A stretch of 32,136 nt of DNA from a virus: IMG/VR virus record IMGVR_UViG_3300023210_000130, positions 1 through 32,136 of that record, one strand, 5' to 3'. The notes below the pieces were generated by a model, which saw nothing but the letters and a program-made list of their open reading frames with translations, ran no database searches and had not been told where the DNA came from. This document shows positions 1 through 32,136 of this stretch, piece after piece. The position numbers and the translations under genes are program-made. The number at the start of each line of letters is the position of its first letter. Positions within the stretch are counted from its first letter, which is position 1.

Positions 1-134
1 TCACCACCATTGGTATTGATACTAGCTTTAATATCGATATCGCACTTAAATATCAGGTTAGCCTTGACATCGATCTCACCATCTTCTATTAACTCTGCAG
101 CTTCTTCATTAGTTGTTATTATTATAGTTTTCAT
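1..134 (-). CDS. GG-repeat protein copy 2, N-terminal part (gene crosses the window ends)
   Basis: This is the first 44 codons of a second copy of the protein encoded at 1163-1735. It starts at the ATG read from 134, behind a strong GGAGGAG ribosome-binding site, and reads MKTIIITTNEEAAEL and onward into the first NGGD repeat. Bases 4-114 match the corresponding part of copy 1 exactly, as far as I can align by eye. The gene is open at the window edge and continues at 32136. Joining end to start keeps the frame and gives TNGGDGGKIS, where a full unit would read TNGGDIYTNGG, so the join removes part of a unit and probably a run of units. It lies in the leftward operon between the 115-aa gene and csrA. 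The function is unknown. Confidence 0.85.
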   Translation of the reverse strand, partial: MKTIIITTNEEAAELIEDGEIDVKANLIFKCDIDIKASINTNGG

Positions 135-151
135 CTCACTCCTCCGTTAAT
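132..151 (-). promoter_or_regulatory. Repeated gene-junction cassette with GGAGGAG ribosome-binding site (copy 2)
   Basis: Read leftward, this is the stop codon TAA of the upstream gene followed by CGGAGGAGTGAG and ATG. The same 20 bases occur at 32021-32040 before csrA, and related versions (TGGAGAAGTGAGATG) occur at 1159-1180 and 1850-1871. The core ACGGA fits the ANGGA core bound by CsrA proteins and overlaps the ribosome-binding site. Control by CsrA is inference. Confidence 0.6.
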
Positions 152-2933: not shown

Positions 2934-2956
2934 TTTTATATCCTCCATAATTAATC

Positions 2957-2984
2957 TTGACTTGCATGCACATTGTGTTATATT
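2957..2984 (+). promoter_or_regulatory. Rightward sigma70-type promoter, early control region
   Basis: TTGACT (2957-2962) and TATATT (2979-2984) are separated by 16 bases. Transcription would start near 2991 and read the rightward early genes from 3087. It lies on top of an opposing promoter at 2972-3000. Confidence 0.6.
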
Positions 2985-3000
2985 GCAACCACAAAGTCAA
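2972..3000 (-). promoter_or_regulatory. Leftward promoter of the recombination operon
   Basis: On the minus strand TTGACT (3000-2995) is followed after 17 bases by CACAAT (2977-2972). The -10 box is weak, and TATAAC at 2982-2977 is closer to consensus but too near. The two TTGACT boxes of the opposing promoters form the outer arms of an inverted repeat (CTTGACTT at 2956-2963, AAGTCAAG at 2994-3001). Confidence 0.5.
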
Positions 3001-3038
3001 GGGATTACGATAAAATAATCTCTCAAATTAACATAGGC

Positions 3039-3047
3039 TGTTACAAT
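3039..3047 (+). promoter_or_regulatory. Extended -10 promoter motif before the putative regulator gene
   Basis: TGTTACAAT reads as an extended -10 element (TGn plus TACAAT) with no clear -35 box. It lies 39 bases before the start of the gene at 3087. The same nonamer appears in the 10-bp repeat arrays before portal and scaffold, so it may instead be a shared regulator site. Confidence 0.4.
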
Positions 3048-3086
3048 ACTTTAGTGTAAGTAATTTGCCATAAATTGGAGCAAAAA

Positions 3087-3329
3087 ATGTGTAAAGAGCA
3101 TTTATTAGAGGATATAATGGAGGAGCTTGATTTAACTCATGCCGATATAGCAAAGTGTTTAGATGTAAAGTTAACCGATAGCCATTCCATGAAAACTAGA
3201 GGTAAAAAATTATCGGAAGATGACATGTTAAAAATATATACTTATTTTTCCTTAAAGTGCGGGGCTATAAAGCATTATTTTAGGAGAAATTATTTTGATA
3301 AAACTCGTAAAATATGGGGGTATAAATGA
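3087..3329 (+). CDS. Small putative helix-turn-helix regulator, Cro-like position
   Basis: This 80-aa protein begins MCKEHLLEDIMEELDL. The ATG at 3087 is preferred because GGAG lies eight bases upstream; a TTG start at 3075 would put the ribosome-binding site inside the gene. Residues 12-45, with LTHADIAKCLDVK at 16-28, resemble a helix-turn-helix (helix, ADIAKCL, recognition segment), although the second helix is weak. The tail is basic. It is the first rightward gene beside the divergent control region, where lambdoid phages carry cro. It overlaps the next gene by four bases. The regulator role is inferred from position and this weak motif. Confidence 0.6.
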   Translation: MCKEHLLEDIMEELDLTHADIAKCLDVKLTDSHSMKTRGKKLSEDDMLKIYTYFSLKCGAIKHYFRRNYFDKTRKIWGYK

Positions 3330-8949: not shown

Positions 8950-10332
8950 ATGGCAGATATAAAACGTAAAGCAGCAATAGAACTAGAGCTGCGTAGAAGA
9001 ATGCGCGCAAGATTAGAATCATTCGAATCATTTCTAAAGCTTGAGAAACCAGATTATAATTGGGATCTACAGCACTTAGCTTATATGCGTAAAACCTTAG
9101 ATCCTGTTGTAGAAGGTGAGCAGAGTAAGTGCATGTACTTTCTTCCTCCTCAGCATGGTAAAAGCACACAAAATACAATCTATTTTGTTGCATATTACAT
9201 GCTAAAAAACCCAACTAAAAAAGTCATACTTGCTGCATACAACAGTGAGTTTGCTTGTGATTTTAGTATAGAGATAAGAGATATTGTAGATAAGTATAAA
9301 AAGCTAACAGTAGAGAAGGCAGGACGATGGAAAACCGAAGAAGGTGGAGGGCTTAGGGCTGGTGGTGTTGGATCTGGTTTAACAGGATTCCCAGCAGACT
9401 TGATTGTCATTGATGATCCTATCAAAACCCCCGAAGATGCTTATAGCGAAACATATAGAAACAAGATGTGGAAATGGTGGCTTGGCGTTATCTTAGCGCG
9501 TATGCACTCAAAAACATCATGTGTATTTACAATGACCAGATGGCATTTAGATGATTTAGCAGGTAGATTGCTAGAGAATGATAAGGACTGGCTTATATGT
9601 AAAATACCTGCACTTGCTTGTAATGATGATCCGCTTGGTAGGAAAGAAGGTGAGGCGTTATGGAATGAAAGATTCCCACGTGATTTCCTATTAGATAAGC
9701 AAAAGTTAGATGCAGGAAGCTTTGAATCTCTATATCAACAAAACCCTGTTGCAGCGGAAGGATCAATAATTAAGCGTGCTGATATACATTACTACGATTA
9801 TGATCCGGGAAGATATGATTACATACTTATGTCCTGGGACACGGCATTTAAGGATGGTCAGCAGAATGATTATAGCGCAATGACATCTTGGGGATGTATT
9901 GGTAACAAGATATATCTAATTGATGCATTTAGAGGTAAGCTTGAATATCCAGATCTAAAGACTACGTTCATCCAGTTATCATCTAAGTGGAAGCCAAATA
10001 TAATTGTTATTGAAGATAAAGCTTCAGGTCAATCATTAACACAAGACTTAAGGAGAACAAGCCAATATCCTTTATTTAGTCAGATTCCAAATGGTGATAA
10101 GGTGGTAAGATGTCACACCATTAAGGACAAGATACGGGCTGGATTAGTTTTATTCCCAAAAGAGAAGGATTGGATTGCTGATTACATCAATGAACTTTGC
10201 ACCTTTCCAGCTGGAAAGCATGATGATTGGGTAGATTCAACAACTCAAGCATTGATATATTTGAATAAGAGAACTGTCACAGTTAGGCAGGATTTAAACA
10301 GGCTTAATCAGAAGATTAGGTTTAATGGATAG
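8950..10332 (+). CDS. Terminase large subunit (ATPase and nuclease)
   Basis: This 460-aa motor drives DNA into the prohead and cuts the concatemer. The ATPase half shows a Walker A-type loop PPQHGKST (66-73), Walker B LIVIDD (151-156) and the TMTRWH motif (194-199). The RNase H-like nuclease half shows WDTAFK with D297, VIEDKASG with E355, and HDDWVDS (424-430) with aspartates for metal binding. Length is normal for the family. No ribosome-binding site stands before the ATG. Its last 42 bases occur again, slightly decayed, at 10703-10744. Confidence 0.95.
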   Translation: MADIKRKAAIELELRRRMRARLESFESFLKLEKPDYNWDLQHLAYMRKTLDPVVEGEQSKCMYFLPPQHGKSTQNTIYFVAYYMLKNPTKKVILAAYNSEFACDFSIEIRDIVDKYKKLTVEKAGRWKTEEGGGLRAGGVGSGLTGFPADLIVIDDPIKTPEDAYSETYRNKMWKWWLGVILARMHSKTSCVFTMTRWHLDDLAGRLLENDKDWLICKIPALACNDDPLGRKEGEALWNERFPRDFLLDKQKLDAGSFESLYQQNPVAAEGSIIKRADIHYYDYDPGRYDYILMSWDTAFKDGQQNDYSAMTSWGCIGNKIYLIDAFRGKLEYPDLKTTFIQLSSKWKPNIIVIEDKASGQSLTQDLRRTSQYPLFSQIPNGDKVVRCHTIKDKIRAGLVLFPKEKDWIADYINELCTFPAGKHDDWVDSTTQALIYLNKRTVTVRQDLNRLNQKIRFNG

Positions 10333-10340
10333 GAGGATGT

Positions 10341-10667
10341 ATGAAAAAGACATACTGCGATAAGTGTGGTGATGAAATAAAAGATAATAATTATTCAATG
10401 ATTGGGAAAACATGTAGATTTGTGAGAATTGAAAAGTTTGTTTCAGATATTGGAGATTATTGTGATTATTGTACAACTTATATGACTGTTAGTATTTCCT
10501 CTATTTTTGACAAGAAAGTAGATATTAAAGAAGATGAAGACGATATAGTTCTATCAGCACCAGATATAGGGATGATATCTAAGTTCATCAACGTATTCGA
10601 TTTAGATGTGGGCGAGCATATTAAGCTGGCAAAAATTGCTAAAGAAGCTAGGAGCCGCAAGAGTTAG
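10341..10667 (+). CDS. Zinc-ribbon protein inserted between terL and portal
   Basis: This 108-aa protein has CDKCGDE (6-12) and a second pair YCDYC near residue 40, a zinc ribbon, followed by an acidic linker (KEDEDD) and a helical end. AGGAGG precedes the ATG. The gene sits between the true terL end and a decayed copy of that end, so it looks like an acquired gene (a moron). The function is unknown. Confidence 0.7.
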   Translation: MKKTYCDKCGDEIKDNNYSMIGKTCRFVRIEKFVSDIGDYCDYCTTYMTVSISSIFDKKVDIKEDEDDIVLSAPDIGMISKFINVFDLDVGEHIKLAKIAKEARSRKS

Positions 10668-10683
10668 AACTTAAAAAATGAAA

Positions 10684-10712
10684 TTGACATAATGTAAAAC
10701 ATGATTTAAACA
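10684..10712 (+). promoter_or_regulatory. Candidate promoter overlapping the terL-end duplicate
   Basis: A perfect TTGACA (10684-10689) is followed after 17 bases by TAAACA (10707-10712), a weak -10 box. It would read towards the portal gene. The -10 box lies within the duplicated terL fragment. Confidence 0.35.
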
Positions 10713-10744
10713 GGCTTAATTAGAAGATTAGGTTCAATGGGTAG
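10703..10744 (+). pseudogene. Decayed duplicate of the terL 3' end
   Basis: These 42 bases match 10291-10332 with three differences. They would encode DLNRLN, a stop, then KIRFNG and the original stop position. It has no start and is a remnant. The intact end and this remnant flank the zinc-ribbon gene like direct repeats. Confidence 0.9.
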
Positions 10745-10810
10745 GGGTAAAGGGGAAATCCGGGTGATATTAATTTCAGCCTGGGATTGGTAAAAGAAAT
10801 CTTGCAATAA

Positions 10811-10841
10811 TCTGTTACAATCTGTTACAATCTGTTACAAT
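10811..10841 (+). promoter_or_regulatory. Three perfect 10-bp repeats before the portal gene
   Basis: TCTGTTACAA occurs three times head to tail at 10811-10840. The last unit plus the next T gives TGTTACAAT, an extended -10 element; 16 bases before it GTTACA (10814-10819) is a fair -35 box. The unit length is about one helical turn, so a bound protein would sit on one face. The related array at 13291-13350 precedes the scaffold gene. Confidence 0.6.
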
Positions 10842-10870
10842 TCGTTTAATTCAACAATTGGAATAGAAAA

Positions 10871-13057
10871 ATGGCAAAAAGACAAACTATCTCGCTAAGG
10901 GATAAGACCAAGAAAGAGAAGGAAGACATCCAGCTATTAAGTGATTTGAAAAAGGACGCAGAGGATTGGAAGAGTTATTATACGATAAATGATGAAAACT
11001 TCAAGGCAGATAAGCTGGCAGTATATTCAGAAAGGGGCTTATGGACTGATAAAGAAATAAAGCAATATAATGATGAAGGAAGACCTATGTTGTCGTTTAA
11101 CATGCTCCCTAAGTTCATCACAAACGTCATAGGTATGTTTAGTACTAGAGGCGCAGACCTAGAAGTAAGACCAAAGAGCACCGCAGGATCCCCGCAACAA
11201 AACATAGACATCTATACAAACATCTTAAGGGATGTATCGTTCTCATCTAGAAATAACATTGTGTATAAGACAGCATTAGAAGATGCTGCAACAGGTGGTT
11301 ATGGAGCATATCTAGTAGATGTTGAGAGAGAGAGTAATTTAAGCTTCCTACATGTAGTTAGATATAAGGCGATTCAAAACCCACTTCAATGCGGATGGGA
11401 CCCTAAGGCTAGAGAAAGGGATAAGTCTGATGGTGACTTTTGTTTCATGGGTAAAACATTTAGCAAAGAAGAGTTTGAGGCTAGATATCCTGGAGAGCCA
11501 ATACCTGATGATGGCCCAGAGAATAAATTCATAGACTGGACAAGCAAAGACGGTGTGGTACTAATGAAGTCTTGGAAGAAAGTTCCTGTCAAAGTAGAGA
11601 TGGCGCAATTATCAAATGGTCAAGAAGTTGAGGTGGAAAAGGCTGAAGAGTTATTAAAAGAAAACAGAAAGATATTAAAATTATTCCCTGGAGAAAAGAA
11701 GCTTGAGATAGTGAAGACCGAAAACATGGTTGATTTCAAGTTAATGTATTATATATTTTCTAGAGATAAAATTTATGAGCGTGGTGAGTGGCTAGGTAAA
11801 AGATTGCCGATTATATTCGTTCCCGGAATATTGAGATGGGTAGATGGTGAAGAAAGAACATATAGCTTAATTAGATGGCAAAAAGACGCACAAAGATCAT
11901 ATAACTACGCTAGAAACGAATATCTATATAGATTATTATTACAAACATATATGAAAATAATGGTTACCGATGAAAACATAGGTGATCATGTTGATATATG
12001 GGAGAACCCAACCGTAGCTAAAGGACCATTGCGTTATAATGTTGGGTCACATAATGAGGTTCCTCAAGTAATACCGCAGCAATCTGTTGGCGATGATTTA
12101 CAAAAAGAAATGACCAGATCTCTTGATGACTTACAGTCAATATCAGGTAGATTCGATCAGAACTTTGGTGGTCAGGGAAATGAAACTAGCGGTGTTGCTA
12201 TTAATGCAAGACGTGGTGCTGGTAACTCAAACATCAAAGAGTTCTTTGATAATATTGAAGATGCTATAGAGTCTGGTGCAATTGCATCTATGGACTTAAT
12301 ACCTAAGGTATATGACTCAGAGAGATCTGTATCTGTTTCTCTTCCTAACGGCAAGCAAGATTCAGTTAAGATTAATGGTGATGATGATAAAGATAATCAA
12401 TTAGAAAACATTCAGTTTAGTGTTAGAGTTAAAGTAGGACCTAACATTGATTTACAACAACAAGATGAAGCTCAAACATTAATTAGTCTGGCTCAAACAA
12501 ATCCTGAATTACATAAATTTGTAGATGACGTAATAATTAAGAACTTAGATATTGATGACGCACCTAAGATTACTGAAAGAATATTACGTTATAGCATTCC
12601 TCAGATTGCAGCAGCAGAAGGAAGTAAAGACCCTGTGGTGATTCAGCAAGCACAGCAGCAGCAACAAGCTCAACAGCAGCAGCAACAACAAACTGCACAG
12701 CAGCAGCAACAAGCTCAGCAAATGTTAGAATTAAAAGTAAAAGAGTTATTGCAGAAAATGCAGATCGATCAAGAAAAGGCTCAGGATGACGCAACAAAAG
12801 CTCAAGCAAACATGATGTCAGGAACAGCTAATTTAATGAATGCCCAAACAAAGAGGGCTGAAGCTCAAACAAAAGGTGTTATTGAAAGTCAAAAACTACA
12901 AGCCGAAGAAGATAGGTCGCAGAGCGCATTGCAAGTACAGCTGCTAAAGCTTTTACAAGAGATACAAAAGACTCCTGGAGCTGGCAATATAGGAGCCAGC
13001 AATATTAATCAAGCACTTCAATCAAGTGCTATTCAACCACAAGAGGGTATTCAATGA
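10871..13057 (+). CDS. Portal protein, P22 type
   Basis: This 728-aa protein forms the ring at the head vertex through which DNA enters and leaves; P22 gp1 has a very similar length. The N-terminal half holds the typical EDWKSYYTIND, GRPMLSFNMLPKFI and ALEDAATGGYGAYLVDV segments. About residues 590-625 are almost pure glutamine and alanine, and a long helical region to the C-terminus follows, as expected for a barrel extension in P22-like portals. The start ATG has only a weak GGAA upstream. The next gene overlaps its stop. Confidence 0.9.
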   Translation: MAKRQTISLRDKTKKEKEDIQLLSDLKKDAEDWKSYYTINDENFKADKLAVYSERGLWTDKEIKQYNDEGRPMLSFNMLPKFITNVIGMFSTRGADLEVRPKSTAGSPQQNIDIYTNILRDVSFSSRNNIVYKTALEDAATGGYGAYLVDVERESNLSFLHVVRYKAIQNPLQCGWDPKARERDKSDGDFCFMGKTFSKEEFEARYPGEPIPDDGPENKFIDWTSKDGVVLMKSWKKVPVKVEMAQLSNGQEVEVEKAEELLKENRKILKLFPGEKKLEIVKTENMVDFKLMYYIFSRDKIYERGEWLGKRLPIIFVPGILRWVDGEERTYSLIRWQKDAQRSYNYARNEYLYRLLLQTYMKIMVTDENIGDHVDIWENPTVAKGPLRYNVGSHNEVPQVIPQQSVGDDLQKEMTRSLDDLQSISGRFDQNFGGQGNETSGVAINARRGAGNSNIKEFFDNIEDAIESGAIASMDLIPKVYDSERSVSVSLPNGKQDSVKINGDDDKDNQLENIQFSVRVKVGPNIDLQQQDEAQTLISLAQTNPELHKFVDDVIIKNLDIDDAPKITERILRYSIPQIAAAEGSKDPVVIQQAQQQQQAQQQQQQQTAQQQQQAQQMLELKVKELLQKMQIDQEKAQDDATKAQANMMSGTANLMNAQTKRAEAQTKGVIESQKLQAEEDRSQSALQVQLLKLLQEIQKTPGAGNIGASNINQALQSSAIQPQEGIQ

Positions 13058-13293
13058 GCGATAAGAAAGGTGTAGGTGTAGTTGCTATTTATAACGAATT
13101 TATAAAAGACAATCCAGATGAGAATGTATTTATTACACGTCATCCTAGAGAAGAAGAGGATTTAATGGTCCTTGTAACTACAAAGACAGTATTTATGCAG
13201 TTATTTCCGGCTCCTGAATCAGAATTTGAGGCAAAAGGAGCTAAGGCAATAGCAAGTCATAGTGATAAAGCTGTAAAAGGCAAGAATAAATGA
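13054..13293 (+). CDS. 79-aa protein between portal and scaffold
   Basis: The ATG overlaps the portal stop (ATGA). The protein contains IYNEFIKDNPDENVF, an acidic middle (REEEDLMVLV) and a lysine-rich tail (DKAVKGKNK). No domain is recognised. Its position suggests a head-assembly accessory role, without direct support. Confidence 0.65.
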   Translation: MSDKKGVGVVAIYNEFIKDNPDENVFITRHPREEEDLMVLVTTKTVFMQLFPAPESEFEAKGAKAIASHSDKAVKGKNK

Positions 13294-13350
13294 TACAAAG
13301 CGTTACAAACTGTTACAAAGTATTGACAAAGTGTTACAAACTGTTACAAT
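13291..13350 (+). promoter_or_regulatory. 10-bp repeat array and promoter before the scaffold gene
   Basis: Six consecutive 10-bp units share the core TTACAA or a close variant (TGATACAAAG, CGTTACAAAC, TGTTACAAAG, TATTGACAAA, GTGTTACAAA, CTGTTACAAT). The fourth unit supplies TTGACA (13323-13328) and the sixth supplies an extended -10, TGTTACAAT (TACAAT at 13345-13350), 16 bases apart. A promoter is thus built into a phased repeat array. Confidence 0.7.
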
Positions 13351-13385
13351 TGAATTACTGACACGGTGAGATTCCATGGCGGAAC

Positions 13386-13414
13386 TTGGCCGATATACTC
13401 CAAGGCCAATTTTT
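13386..13414 (+). terminator. Hairpin with T run in the scaffold leader
   Basis: TTGGCC (13386-13391) pairs with GGCCAA (13404-13409) across a 12-base loop, followed by five T (13410-13414). It lies between the array promoter and the scaffold ATG, so it may act as an attenuator. The six-base stem is short. Confidence 0.4.
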
Positions 13415-13440
13415 ACAGACGTGAAAATTGAGGTGAAAAA

Positions 13441-14292
13441 ATGAGTGAAGAGAATTCCGTTGAAGTTGCAAATGAACCTGTGACTGAAACTGTAGTGAGT
13501 GAAAGTGCTGATGCTGAACAAGTTACGAGTGAAGAAAGTAGCGATGAATCTGCTGTTACTGAAAGACCAGTAGATGAAAAAGTTGTTTTTAACACCCGCG
13601 AGGAGTTCGATAACCATGCCGCAAAATTAAAAGCAAAAGCTGAGAGAAAGCTAAAACGAAAGTTAGATGCTGAATATCAGAAAAAATATGAAGATTTGCA
13701 GGCAGCTCAGCAGGAACCACAAAGTACAGCGACAGTAAATACAGTTTCACCTGGACCTGATTATGTGTGGGATCAATATTTAGGTTATATCCATAAAGAT
13801 ATGACAGCGCCTCAGTATAGCGAAGCGATTGCTAAAGCAATAAATAGCCAGCAAACACAAGTCCAGCAACCAGTACAGCAGCAATTTAATAATCCTGCTC
13901 CTGCGGTTAATACGCCGGTAGCAAGTGAAAGGTTAATAGACCAGCTTGAAGATTTCGCAGATGAGCATCCGGATTTATCAGATGTTCTACAGTCTGTAAA
14001 TATAAAGCTTGATATGTTAGAAAATGCTTCGTTGTACAAAGACGGAATAAATAAATTATATGAGGAAGCTAAAAGCAATCCTTCCAAAGTATTTAAGATA
14101 TCTTCGCTCACGGATGAGAAAGAACGTAACTTGAAGATGTTTGAGCTAAATGACTCAAAGAACAATCAAAAGAAAGTTACAAAAGTTCCCGCTCAACCTG
14201 ACCCTATACACGGCGGTTCATCTATTGGCGTTAAGAAAATGGCGCAGATGAACGAAGAAGAATTGGCAGAGAAATTCATACGGGAGCTTTAA
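13441..14292 (+). CDS. Scaffolding protein
   Basis: This 283-aa protein should guide coat assembly and then leave the head. It fits the type: a Glu/Ser/Val-rich acidic N-terminus (1-50), a highly charged helix (KLKAKAERKLKRKLDAEY), a glutamine- and proline-rich middle (about 130-160), and a helical end with FADEHPDLSDVLQSV and MNEEELAEKFIREL. It lies between portal and coat, as gp8 does in P22, and has similar length. GAGGTG precedes the ATG. The call rests on position and composition, because scaffolds are poorly conserved. Confidence 0.8.
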   Translation: MSEENSVEVANEPVTETVVSESADAEQVTSEESSDESAVTERPVDEKVVFNTREEFDNHAAKLKAKAERKLKRKLDAEYQKKYEDLQAAQQEPQSTATVNTVSPGPDYVWDQYLGYIHKDMTAPQYSEAIAKAINSQQTQVQQPVQQQFNNPAPAVNTPVASERLIDQLEDFADEHPDLSDVLQSVNIKLDMLENASLYKDGINKLYEEAKSNPSKVFKISSLTDEKERNLKMFELNDSKNNQKKVTKVPAQPDPIHGGSSIGVKKMAQMNEEELAEKFIREL

Positions 14293-14338: not shown

Positions 14339-15601
14339 ATGGCTAATACATTGAATGCTAAAGAAGCCTTGGCATTAAAAATTCTGGTACAAATGGAAGC
14401 TAATACAGTTTTCATGGCTAATTCATGGCGCGATTACGAAGTTGATATGGTTCGTTGGCCTTCAGACACAAAAGCTAAAGTAGACATTAGATTACCTAAC
14501 AACTTTGAAGTAAATAACACTTGGGATATTACATCTGTATCACGTGATATTACCGAAAGAACTATTACTTTAACTGCTGATCGTCCAACTAACGTTTCAT
14601 TTGATCTAAGTACTTTTGAAGATACTTTTGAAATTGACAAAAACTATGATATGCGCACGGTTCGTCCTGCATCATCTAATATAGCTTTAAGCATTGATAA
14701 TGACTTATCTGTAGCATTATTTGAAGGTGCTTATTATCACGTTGGTACTGCTGGAACATTAGTAGCATCATATGAAGCTATATCACAAGTTACTGCGTTC
14801 ATGAATGACACCGCTATTCCTGATGATGGAATGAGATTAGGTGTTTTAAGTGAGCAAACTTATGGTTCATTGGGTTCATTCTCAGGATTACAAAATTCAA
14901 ATGCTGTTGACATAACCAAAGACGTTACACGTAAATGGCGTATTGGTGAAGTTGCAAACATCATGCTTTTCCATAACCATGCTGTTGTTAAACATATAGC
15001 TGGTGTTGGTGAAGTTGCTGAAACTCCTGCAAACGGTGTTGTTGATGCTGGAACCTCAAAAGCTGCAGTAGCAAGTGGCAATACTATGGTTGTTGAAGGT
15101 TTGGGTGTTTCCACTCCGGGCGTATTCTTGAAAGGTGATTTAATCACTATTCCTGAACGTCAAGTACTACATCATAGAACTTTACAGCCTACAGGTCGAC
15201 CTTTTCAAATAACTATACTTGATACAACTGTTGCTTCAAGCGCAGGTGGTGAAGCTACTATTACTTTCTCCCCAGCAATTGTAACTACAGGTCCTTATAA
15301 AAATATAGATGCTGAAGTAGCAATAGGCGATAGCTTAACTCTAGCAACTGGAAACTCAGGTGTTGGTAGTGCTACCAAAGGAATTTATACAGCTAATATT
15401 TTCTATCATAAAACTGCTTTATTATTTGCAGCACCTAAGATCAAGAAATTGTTCGCAGATGATGCATTCGCAATGCGTGATGGAATAAGCATCAGATTGT
15501 CTGGTAATGGTGATATTTTAACCTCAATCAGAACAGCTCGTTTGGATAACTTATCAGGTAAAGTTGTCGATGGCTCTCGTGTTGTAATCTTATTGGGCTA
15601 G
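14339..15601 (+). CDS. Major coat protein, P22 gp5 type
   Basis: This 420-aa protein builds the icosahedral shell. Its length is close to P22 gp5 (430), and the segments MANTLNAKEALALKIL, NSWRDYEVDMVRW, ITERTITLTADRP and RKWRIGEVANIMLFHNH resemble that family. The middle (about residues 220-340) is rich in alanine, threonine and glycine, consistent with an inserted surface domain. TTGGAG lies upstream of the ATG. The stop is followed by a strong hairpin. Confidence 0.88.
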   Translation: MANTLNAKEALALKILVQMEANTVFMANSWRDYEVDMVRWPSDTKAKVDIRLPNNFEVNNTWDITSVSRDITERTITLTADRPTNVSFDLSTFEDTFEIDKNYDMRTVRPASSNIALSIDNDLSVALFEGAYYHVGTAGTLVASYEAISQVTAFMNDTAIPDDGMRLGVLSEQTYGSLGSFSGLQNSNAVDITKDVTRKWRIGEVANIMLFHNHAVVKHIAGVGEVAETPANGVVDAGTSKAAVASGNTMVVEGLGVSTPGVFLKGDLITIPERQVLHHRTLQPTGRPFQITILDTTVASSAGGEATITFSPAIVTTGPYKNIDAEVAIGDSLTLATGNSGVGSATKGIYTANIFYHKTALLFAAPKIKKLFADDAFAMRDGISIRLSGNGDILTSIRTARLDNLSGKVVDGSRVVILLG

Positions 15602-16394: not shown

Positions 16395-17811
16395 TTTACC
16401 ATTAGACATAATTGGATCGTTTGATAAATCTTACTCCTCTGAGTTTGACCCACAAGAGCTTATTAATTGTTTTGTGACAACTGACCCTATGGGTAAAAAG
16501 GGTAAGGCTATATTCCCAACCCCAGGATTGAGTCTTGATAATGGGACGTCAATTCAAACAGGAAAAGCAGGAAGAAGGTTGTACCCATATAAAGACCATA
16601 TGTATTGGGTTGTAGGAAGTCAGATATATAGAGTTGATACATCACTAAATTTAGTATTTATTGGTGATATCAATACGGAGACCGGATATGTTGGAATTTC
16701 AGATAATGGACGTGAAGTTATTTTTGTAGATGGAACGGCGGGATGGTTGTGGAATGATTCTACCGGTTCTTTTTCTCAAATTAGTAGCGTTGGATTTCCA
16801 TTAGAGCCTACAGATGTCTCATTATTAGGGGCAAGATTTGTTGTTAGCAAAGTTGATTCTGGAGTTTTACATTTCTCCGGAATAAATAATGGAACAACTT
16901 GGGATGCATTAGATACTTTTTCAATAGGTTCAGATAGCGTTATTGGATTAAAAGCGTTAAATGATCGCCTATATATTATGGGAACTAAAATTACCCAGAC
17001 ATGGTATAACGCTGGGAATCCTATTTTACCATTTGCCCGTGTTGAAACTTTCCCCTATGGATGTGCCGCAGTAGGAAGTATTTATGAGGCATTTGGCTTT
17101 CTAGCATGGTTAAGCAAAGATGAGGATGGAGTGGGATCTATAGTAATGACTAGTGGAACCACCCCAAAACCAGTAAGCACTAAAAGTCTTTTAACTGAAT
17201 TTCAAAGATATTCAAATGTAAGTGACGCAAATTCATTTATCTATAGAAATGATCAAGGTCATGTTATGTATCAGATTAACTTTACTGAAGATAATAAATC
17301 TTGGGCTTTAGATATAACAGAAGGAAATTTCATTAGGCTAGAGTACAACTCAAAAGATAGGCATCTAGCTAATGATCATGCATTTCTCATTAATAAACAC
17401 TATGTGATTGACCATAGAACATCAAGTTTATATGAAATGAGCAGTAAATACCTTGCTGATGTTGATGTAAATATAAGGCGCACACGCGTACCTCCTATTT
17501 TCTCTGATCCTAATTATAGATATATGATAATTAACAGCATTACTTTTGATCTTAAGCAAGGTGTTGGAAGCTCTTCATGTGGTAAAAATGCTTCACCTAA
17601 ATTACGACTTAGAGTGTCAATAGATGGTGGGTTAAGTTATGGAAATGAGCTTACAGCTGACATAGGTGATGTTGGCAGAAGAGAGTATGAAACTAAATTC
17701 TTTAGATTAGGAAGAGCGAAGTCATTTGTATTTAAGATAACAATGGACAATGAAGTTCCTTTTGTTTTATTGGGTGCTTCTATAAATGTAACAGCGCAGG
17801 GGAATCAATAA
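16384..17811 (+). CDS. Packaged-DNA stabilisation protein, P22 gp10-like hub
   Basis: This 475-aa protein starts with GTG (MATNLPLDIIGSF) and has almost the length of P22 gp10 (472). It shows the family opening (P22-like DPQELINCFVTTDP and KAIFPTPGLSL) and repeated beta-propeller-like blades (KDHMYWVVGSQIYRV, DNGREVIFVDGTAGW, NDRLYIMGTKITQTW). It stacks below the gp4 ring to plug the head and carry the tail needle or fibres. It overlaps both neighbours, in keeping with coupled translation. Confidence 0.85.
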   Translation: MATNLPLDIIGSFDKSYSSEFDPQELINCFVTTDPMGKKGKAIFPTPGLSLDNGTSIQTGKAGRRLYPYKDHMYWVVGSQIYRVDTSLNLVFIGDINTETGYVGISDNGREVIFVDGTAGWLWNDSTGSFSQISSVGFPLEPTDVSLLGARFVVSKVDSGVLHFSGINNGTTWDALDTFSIGSDSVIGLKALNDRLYIMGTKITQTWYNAGNPILPFARVETFPYGCAAVGSIYEAFGFLAWLSKDEDGVGSIVMTSGTTPKPVSTKSLLTEFQRYSNVSDANSFIYRNDQGHVMYQINFTEDNKSWALDITEGNFIRLEYNSKDRHLANDHAFLINKHYVIDHRTSSLYEMSSKYLADVDVNIRRTRVPPIFSDPNYRYMIINSITFDLKQGVGSSSCGKNASPKLRLRVSIDGGLSYGNELTADIGDVGRREYETKFFRLGRAKSFVFKITMDNEVPFVLLGASINVTAQGNQ

Positions 17812-19005: not shown

Positions 19006-20388
19006 ATGGCATTGCAAGTAATACAACCACTACAGGCTAAAACTCCATTACCAAGTGATATAATGGCTAGGATAGCTGCATCATTACAGCAGCAGGCTCA
19101 AGCAAGAACTCAGCCTTTATTGCAGGCTCAACAAATAGATGCTGGAAGGCAGCAAGAAGCCCTAAGGGGCCTTCAGTTGCAGCAAGAGCAAAATTTAGCT
19201 CCATTACGCCAGCAACAAATACAGTCTCAAATAGAGAATTTTCCACAACAGCAAAAGTTAGATTTAGCAAAATCTCTAGCATCAATTGGATTGCAGCGAG
19301 CACAAGCTCAAGAGCTAACATCAAGAGCGCAAAAAGAAGGTGCTCCTACATTATCATCATCAGCACAAGCTCAACAAGAATTTTTATCAAATTTACAGAA
19401 ATATGGAAAAGATGATGTTAGGACAAGAACTTCAGCGGCAAATTTAGCCAAATTAACAGGATTTAAGGCATCTACACCTTCGCCATCTACTACAAGCTCA
19501 ATAGCAACACCAGATAAAGCAGATACCGCTCCTACTGGAGTTAATCCAGATCCAGCTAATAGTTCTGAGGTTAATTCAACAATAACTCATGCAAACAATA
19601 AGTCTCAATTAACATCTCCTACGGATGCTACAAAAGAAGTCAATCAGGCGATACCTGATAGTAATGTTGCAACTCCTGAGCAAATTAAATCTGTACAGCC
19701 AATAGTTAAAAAACAGCAAACATTAAGTGAACAAGCAAATGATGTGCTGAATGATGTTACAAGACAGGCGCAACAAGAAAATGATCCGTTTTTAAAGGCC
19801 CAAGCTCAAGATTTAAGTAAAAAATATAATGATGTATCAACTGATGCGCAACAAGCAACAGAAAAAGAGCTGCCTCTATATAAAACATTATTAGATGATT
19901 TGCATGACACTAAATTAGTAAATCCTTTAAGTGGAGCTATTTCATGGACTACCCCCTCCGGACAAAAATTTAGAGCGGATTTAGTTAGGGCGCAAGGTGA
20001 GTTTATTAAAACATTCCATTTAGGAAGAATGACTCAGCGAGAATTTAACATGATTAAAAATGCCATTGGTACTTCTACAATGTGGCCGTCTTCTTTAAGA
20101 AAGCTATTTGGAGGAGTTATATCGAAAGATTATTTGGCTCAAGATAAATTTAATCATTATTCAGACTATGTGGCTGGAGGTGGTAGGAAATTATTTGAAG
20201 CCGATAAACAATGGGAAGATAAACTTCCTGATTCGTTAAAGTCATCCCAACAACAATCAGCAGATACCGTAAATGAATCAAGATTAAAAGGCCTTGGGGA
20301 TGGTGTAAATATGGATCAAATTCATGCTATAGCTAAAAAGAAAGGTATTTCAGAAGAGCGTGTAATAGACCTTATTGGGAAAGGATAA
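19006..20388 (+). CDS. DNA ejection protein, gp20-like position
   Basis: This 460-aa protein has a Gln/Ala-rich helical N-terminus (1-130), a Thr/Ser/Pro-rich linker (130-210) and a helical middle. Its C-terminal domain is better ordered, with LVNPLSGAISWTTPSGQ and HLGRMTQREFNMIKNAIG. It ends with a short helical module (GLGDGVNMDQIHAIAKKKG). AGGAG lies upstream. The role in DNA delivery is inferred from composition and gene order. Confidence 0.7.
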   Translation: MALQVIQPLQAKTPLPSDIMARIAASLQQQAQARTQPLLQAQQIDAGRQQEALRGLQLQQEQNLAPLRQQQIQSQIENFPQQQKLDLAKSLASIGLQRAQAQELTSRAQKEGAPTLSSSAQAQQEFLSNLQKYGKDDVRTRTSAANLAKLTGFKASTPSPSTTSSIATPDKADTAPTGVNPDPANSSEVNSTITHANNKSQLTSPTDATKEVNQAIPDSNVATPEQIKSVQPIVKKQQTLSEQANDVLNDVTRQAQQENDPFLKAQAQDLSKKYNDVSTDAQQATEKELPLYKTLLDDLHDTKLVNPLSGAISWTTPSGQKFRADLVRAQGEFIKTFHLGRMTQREFNMIKNAIGTSTMWPSSLRKLFGGVISKDYLAQDKFNHYSDYVAGGGRKLFEADKQWEDKLPDSLKSSQQQSADTVNESRLKGLGDGVNMDQIHAIAKKKGISEERVIDLIGKG

Positions 20389-24629: not shown

Positions 24630-24769
24630 GATCACCATTAAAATATTATGAAATGATAGCTAAGGCTTTTCAGCACATCTATCAAAATATATTTAAAATA
24701 ACTGAGAGTGGCGACAATAAGATAACTGAAGACGGTGACACAAAAATAACTGAAGATTCAGATAATTAA
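24626..24769 (+). CDS. 47-aa protein with ITED-type repeats
   Basis: The start overlaps the previous stop as ATGA. After a helical opening (MRSPLKYYEMIAKAFQ) the protein has three copies of an eight-residue unit, KITESGDN, KITEDGDT and KITEDSDN. Each unit could form a beta strand with a turn, as in short fibre-associated repeats. It may be a connector or chaperone for the next fibre. Small but well framed. Confidence 0.6.
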   Translation: MRSPLKYYEMIAKAFQHIYQNIFKITESGDNKITEDGDTKITEDSDN

Positions 24770-31837: not shown

Positions 31838-32023
31838 TTAGTTATTTTCATTATCAATCTTATCCTGTATTTCTTTTCTATGCACAGTAATGCTATTAGG
31901 AGCATCAATCCCAACTCTAACTTGACTCCCTTTTACTCCAAGATTAAATATTGTTATGCGATCACCTTCAAGTTTACCGCTAATAATTATATCTTCCCCG
32001 ATCCTTCTTGTTAAAACTAACAT
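31838..32023 (-). CDS. csrA: CsrA-family translational regulator, phage-encoded
   Basis: This 61-aa protein begins [16 protein letters not shown], keeping L4, R6 and R7 of the RNA-binding strand. It continues [19 protein letters not shown] and VHRKEI, where the arginine matches R44 of E. coli CsrA, which is required for RNA binding. Compared with E. coli CsrA there is a short insertion between the first two strands (SGKLEGDRI). CsrA binds GGA motifs near ribosome-binding sites and usually represses translation. Here its own ribosome-binding site is ACGGAGGAG, also found before GG-repeat copy 2, so autogenous control is plausible. The start lies one base after the stop of GG-repeat copy 2. Confidence 0.92.
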
Positions 32024-32040
32024 CTCACTCCTCCGTTAAT
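32021..32040 (-). promoter_or_regulatory. Repeated gene-junction cassette with GGAGGAG ribosome-binding site (csrA)
   Basis: This is identical over 20 bases to 132-151. It joins the end of GG-repeat copy 2 to csrA, with one base between TGA and ATG. Two GGA motifs, one inside ACGGA, overlap the ribosome-binding site and are candidate CsrA sites. Confidence 0.6.
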
Positions 32041-32136
32041 TGTTTATTAAGATTCTCAAAAGATTCTTCTGATAGCTCGATATCCTTTCCATCTATAGTT
32101 ATGGTGTGGCTATTAGATAAGGATATTTTTCCACCA
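32025..32136 (-). CDS. GG-repeat protein copy 2, C-terminal part (continues at position 134)
   Basis: This stretch encodes the tail of the second GG-repeat protein: [16 protein letters not shown] and on to NKQLTEE. Bases 32049-32136 are identical to the matching part of copy 1. The last six codons differ (NKQLTEE against KKQLMEK). The repeat tract itself is missing at the window edge, so the number of units in this copy is unknown. The stop lies one base before the csrA start. Confidence 0.85.

Follow-up and report, generated by a model that had tools for sequence, protein, structure and literature searches.

Two arrays of tandem direct repeats lie before the portal and scaffold genes of a phage with P22-like head genes, and they quite probably serve as protein-binding operators integrated with the head-gene promoters. 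The sequence analysed, referred to here as the window, is a 32,136-bp virus record from IMG/VR. We read the arrays as operators within sigma70 promoters because of their position, their periodicity, the -35 and -10 elements embedded in array 2, the exact OmpR-type motif that they carry, and an arrangement found across a whole clade of relatives.

Repeat arrays and promoter elements in the head-gene region

The features of the region are as follows.

8950-10332: large terminase gene
10813..10842, + strand: array 1, three tandem decamers (TGTTACAATC TGTTACAATC TGTTACAATT) 5' of the portal gene
10833..10841, + strand: candidate extended -10, TGtTACAAT, in the last unit of array 1
10871..13057, + strand: portal gene (phrog_156, E 2.4e-91)
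13291..13351, + strand: array 2, six units of 10, 10, 10, 11, 10 and 10 bp, 5' of the scaffold gene
13323..13328, + strand: -35 hexamer TTGACA, a perfect match, in unit 4 of array 2
13342..13350, + strand: extended -10, TGtTACAAT, in the last unit of array 2 (spacer 16)
13357..13440, + strand: 5' leader of the scaffold-coat transcript, from its putative start site
13407..13430, + strand: predicted hairpin CAATTTTTAC..GTGAAAATTG, immediately 5' of the ribosome-binding site
13441..14292, + strand: scaffold gene, assigned by position and by 36% identity to the gene at the corresponding position of a related contig, L200; it has no match in PHROG
14339..15601, + strand: major coat protein gene (phrog_283)

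All three decamers of array 1 are perfect, and TRF reports the array at 10809-10841 with a period of 10, 3.3 copies, 100% match and a score of 66; the first-pass annotation had seen the same three units at 10811-10840, coordinates that we correct to 10813-10842. Array 2 reads, in order, TGATACAAAG CGTTACAAAC TGTTACAAAG TATTGACAAAG TGTTACAAAC TGTTACAATT (TRF: 82% matches, 4% indels, score 75). It had been described as six imperfect 10-bp units at 13291-13350; the six units hold and the uniform length does not, the fourth unit being 11 bp long and the array ending at 13351. Both arrays fit head-to-tail spacing of about 10 bp on one face of the DNA, with a 10-bp period and a single 11-bp step in array 2. 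A tandem array of period 8-13 scoring at least 66 arose in 0 of 100 dinucleotide shuffles of the window (shuffle maximum 57), and the four exact copies of GTTACAN4GTTACA in the window, where 0.01 would be expected, are confined to arrays 1 and 2. The single copy that had been pointed out before the gene at 3087 is indeed there, as a lone octamer at 3039-3046, but we give it no weight since three further exact octamers, at 19755, 23656 and 25364 (minus), sit within genes.

The earlier proposal that the last unit of each array gives an extended -10 element is borne out: TGtTACAAT, which agrees with the extended -10 at 8 of 9 positions, is found in both, and array 2 adds the perfect TTGACA at 13323. 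The resulting promoter, TTGACA-N16-TGtTACAAT, has 11/12 matches plus the TG, and two sites of at least 11/12 with TG occur in the whole window (0.1 expected). The sigma70 pattern used here (TTGACA, 16-18 bp, TGnTATAAT) is found in array 2 only; array 1 is without a good -35, its weak candidates being GTTACA at 10814 (spacer 16), or TTGCAA at 10802 taken with the middle unit (spacer 18). We infer that transcription starts near 13357 for array 2 and near 10848 for array 1.

These elements also allow an account in which the arrays are simply extended -10 promoters in tandem, with every decamer TGtTACAAT(c) acting as a -10 without any extra protein, and the copies deriving from slippage and from copying of the promoter to the other gap. 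The 8/9 match and the perfect -35 of array 2 are in its favour, and the three identical copies in array 1 could reflect recent slippage; however, four units of array 2 (1-3 and 5) have TACAAA at their ends rather than TACAAT, non-promoter units occupy the same slot in relatives, and the decamer pairs of other phages stand upstream of promoters distinct from them, at two distances in phase with the helix (see below). As a full explanation, tandem promoters are not supported, because the DnaA boxes or other unit that relatives hold in this place cannot serve as -10 elements, and we consider this account quite unlikely.

The same place in relatives, and paired decamers in other phages

Single-protein scans of portal and terminase returned no close relatives; portal and tail-protein alignments identified L113 (with a near-copy, L194), L115 and L200, the last a 32,950-bp contig in a Gastranaerophilales MAG. 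No TGTTACAA arrays occur in L113, L194, L115 or L200. Conservation of the decamer in relatives, as the first-pass annotation envisaged it, thus holds for the arrangement, with arrays in L200, L113 and L115, and fails for the unit, which is a DnaA box in two of them and CTCCTAACATTT in one. In L200, tandem DnaA boxes with roughly 11-bp spacing stand before the portal gene (L200:3331-3374) and before the scaffold gene (L200:5869-5900), the latter at or just past the putative start as judged by eye; six of the seven copies of TTATNCACA in the contig fall in these two arrays, and the MAG holds no tandem DnaA pairs outside them. The scaffold gene of L115 is preceded by six perfect DnaA boxes with 11-bp spacing and then by degenerate units with TTGACA and TATTCT (L115:8995-9093), and in L113 there are 3.6 copies of the 12-bp unit upstream of TTGACA-N17-TATAAA, a promoter called by eye. 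A -35 lies inside an array unit in array 2 of the window, in L115 (TTGACA, 9065) and at the L200 portal (TTCACA, 3369). In L113 and L115 the portal gene has no gap ahead of it that could house an array. The DnaA-box arrays of L200 and L115, with their 11-bp period, are therefore like those of the window in place, in tandem build and, for L115 and the L200 portal, in carrying the -35 within a unit, whereas the unit of the window is not a DnaA box. DnaA as the factor for the window arrays was rejected, as both copies of TTATNCACA in the window lie outside them.

We surveyed 112 gaps around portal and scaffold, called by a simple ORF rule, in about 100 P22-like loci among those listed, and arrays of comparable strength and place were found there only in the window, L200, L113 and L115; weak short matches in L115, L149 and L152 were left out of the count. 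In a portal tree of 88 rows, these four form exactly one clade with a support of 100 (0 of 500 shuffles), L115 being on a long branch, so that the array-bearing clade has at least four members. L115 also carries, between portal and scaffold and beside its DnaA-box array, a CI-like repressor gene (minus strand) and palindromic TAGGTGCTA/TAGCACCTA sites (L115:8099-8950).

Searching IMG/VR for TGTTACAATNTGTTACAAT yielded 104 stretches, which reduce to 52 independent clusters when clustered on masked flanks. Paired TGTTACAAT is closely followed on the same strand by a sigma70 promoter of at least 10/12 matches in 20 of the 52 clusters, where 1.2 would be expected and where the opposite strand gives 6, and a separate earlier clustering of the decamer stretches agrees with this promoter link. 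The distance from the pair to the -35 is exactly 7 or 17 bp in 14 of the 20 promoter-bearing clusters; these two distances are one helix turn apart, as expected of a protein that contacts RNA polymerase from one face. The phages with promoter-linked pairs are many and unrelated (loci L003-L106), so that the decamer can be put to the test as a general phage element. Arrays tied to promoters in the window, together with phased pairs before promoters in unrelated phages, fit a protein whose copies stack along one DNA face, and to this extent the earlier suggestion of a regulator polymerising in this way is supported. In array 2 the offset from pair to -35 is 3 or 13 bp, as against 7 or 17 bp in the other phages, and the units overlap the core promoter, so the activating position (a pair 7 or 17 bp before the -35) is not the one seen there; this geometry favours a repressing or timing role over an activating one.

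Given the same treatment, triple DnaA-box arrays show no promoter link (2 of 72 clusters on each strand, 1.3 expected). Triple DnaA boxes with 11-bp spacing are common in viral contigs, in at least 120 stretches (L218-L337), mostly not near promoters. The frequency of such promoterless DnaA arrays in phage genomes would suit a different role, in which the small terminase or an initiator binds the arrays for packaging (pac) or replication and their place beside head genes has other reasons, and the small terminase-like genes do differ among the window, L113 and L200, as do the units. This role is very improbable, given two arrays per genome that each precede a head gene and a -35 built into the repeat in the window, L115 and the L200 portal.

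Candidate regulators and the host

The published OmpR motif of E. coli is GTTACAN4GTTACA, GTTACAnnnnGTTACA (PMC7315122), and RstA protomers bind tandem TACA sites head to tail on one side of the DNA, the RstA box being TACATNTNGTTACA (PMC4117788). The window arrays share with these direct-repeat boxes of Enterobacteria the exact OmpR motif and the build of 10-bp direct repeats; the OmpR/RstA boxes lie upstream, whereas the window arrays cover the core promoter and are on a phage genome, with both binding and the host factor putative. The claimed virus-specificity of the unit is unsupported, because the unit is exactly the published OmpR motif and also resembles RstA and HLR1/RpaB sites. No OmpR-type DNA-binding domain is encoded in the window (Trans_reg_C, E<=10), so such a factor would be supplied by the host. 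The regulators that the first-pass annotation had nominated gained no backing: the product of 3087 belongs to no recognised family and its helical model is of such low confidence (pLDDT 57) as to be unusable as a clue, the zinc-ribbon-like matches of the 8712 product are all below threshold, and the 10341 product has no clear similarity in Pfam.

PhoB of E. coli O157:H7 influences genes of phage BP-933W, late genes included (PMC3978041), and is thus a host regulator of the OmpR/PhoB family acting on phage genes; unlike the window, that system uses Pho boxes, has no tandem GTTACA arrays and does not involve the portal and scaffold promoters. We found nothing specific in the literature on phage late promoters with DnaA boxes, or on HLR1 in cyanophages. 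The HLR1 consensus is (G/T)TTACA(T/A)(T/A)NN(G/T)TTACA(T/A)(T/A), which the array pairs of the window fit. HLR1 is a cyanobacterial motif bound by RpaB, and it brings about repression when placed within a core promoter (PMC6331805). HLR1/RpaB was rejected as the sole answer, since a photosynthetic host is not indicated for the window and the motif is absent from the Gastranaerophilales MAG that holds L200.

The host of the window phage leans proteobacterial, because the product of the phage CsrA gene (31838-32023, minus strand) is nearer to CsrA of E. coli (30 of 61 residues identical) than to that of the L200 MAG (26 of 60), and because most head and tail genes of the window have strong Shine-Dalgarno sites. 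Gastranaerophilales as host was rejected, and the assignment treated as doubtful binning, on the CsrA comparison and on the phage being present in 1 of 286 Gastranaerophilales genomes, on a separate contig, and missing from the other 285; the MAG that holds L200, the sole genome-linked relative, contains no GTTACAWWNNGTTACAWW at all, and its host label is doubtful.

The reading that we favour, held tentatively and at somewhat less than even chances, is that the array-binding protein is a host regulator of the OmpR/PhoB family, probably a repressor or timer. A winged-helix regulator of this kind would bind head to tail, one protomer per decamer and on one DNA face, to operators that form part of the sigma70 promoters driving the portal and scaffold-coat genes. 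Once on the array it would most likely block RNA polymerase, since the units cover the -35, the spacer and the -10, and the head genes would remain silent until copies of the phage DNA titrate the regulator away or it is inactivated; activation from the upstream units is possible but less likely. In the relatives, other factors would have their sites in this slot, and in two cases those sites are DnaA boxes. Points against the host-regulator reading are the poor -35 of array 1, the offset of array 2, which departs from the activating geometry common in the other phages, the different units of the relatives, and the lack of GTTACAWWNNGTTACAWW in the L200 MAG.

The same operator-in-promoter layout could instead be read by a phage-encoded protein, for example the 3087 product or another unrecognised one, whose specificity drifts with the repeat unit. 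The repeat unit differs in each relative while the arrangement is constant, as would also be expected of a phage-encoded regulator that changes fast, and the divergent early region before 3087, with its palindrome CTTGACTT/AAGTCAAG around a promoter, looks switch-like. We nevertheless regard a phage-encoded binder as somewhat unlikely: two relatives carry DnaA boxes of consensus sequence, to which a host protein binds, with no DnaA-type domain encoded in the L115 contig; the unit of the window equals a known host-regulator motif; the 3087 protein is without a family or a confident model; and the CI-like repressor of L115 has separate palindromic operators beside the array.

P22-like and lambdoid late genes are usually pictured as being under phage antiterminators or activators. 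Extending the host-regulator reading to the clade gives a podovirus lineage with a plug-in operator at its head-gene promoters, the unit being swapped between host global regulators (DnaA in two members, OmpR-type in the window), such that head production would be timed by host replication or stress signalling, or by dilution of the regulator as phage DNA multiplies; as a whole, this extension is unlikely. If head promoters in this lineage do take their input from host regulators by way of tandem arrays, the phage would be leaving late timing to the host, and the swapping of units would illustrate how a control slot can persist while its input is rewired.

The scaffold leader and other features of the window

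Within the leader, the block GCGGAACnTnGCCGATATnCT (13379-13399) is exact in L113 and partial in L200, and the hairpin candidate CAATTTT..AAAATTG has similar stems in both; we only note the hairpin, because its folding scores are modest (z -1.6 in the window). The leader was rejected as a known RNA family, having no Rfam match, and as a conserved peptide, the frame being lost in L113 as judged by eye.

The divergent region at 2940-3090 carries a promoter, TTGACT-N16-TGTTATATT (2957), within the palindrome mentioned above (2956-2963, 2994-3001), and looks like an early operator or regulatory switch. A 46-nt direct repeat (91%), at 10288-10333 and 10700-10745, flanks the small ORF at 10341-10667 with two copies of the terminase gene's 3' end, as if this ORF had been inserted. 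Another small ORF (24630-24769) encodes KITEDGDT-like 8-residue repeats, with a 24-bp tandem repeat at 24694-24756, and has its L200 counterpart at 16978-17035. Finally, both ends of the window (1-150 and 32000-32136) seem to lie within copies of a repeat-protein gene that also occurs at 1163-1735, and the genome is therefore probably a complete circle that was opened at a repeat.
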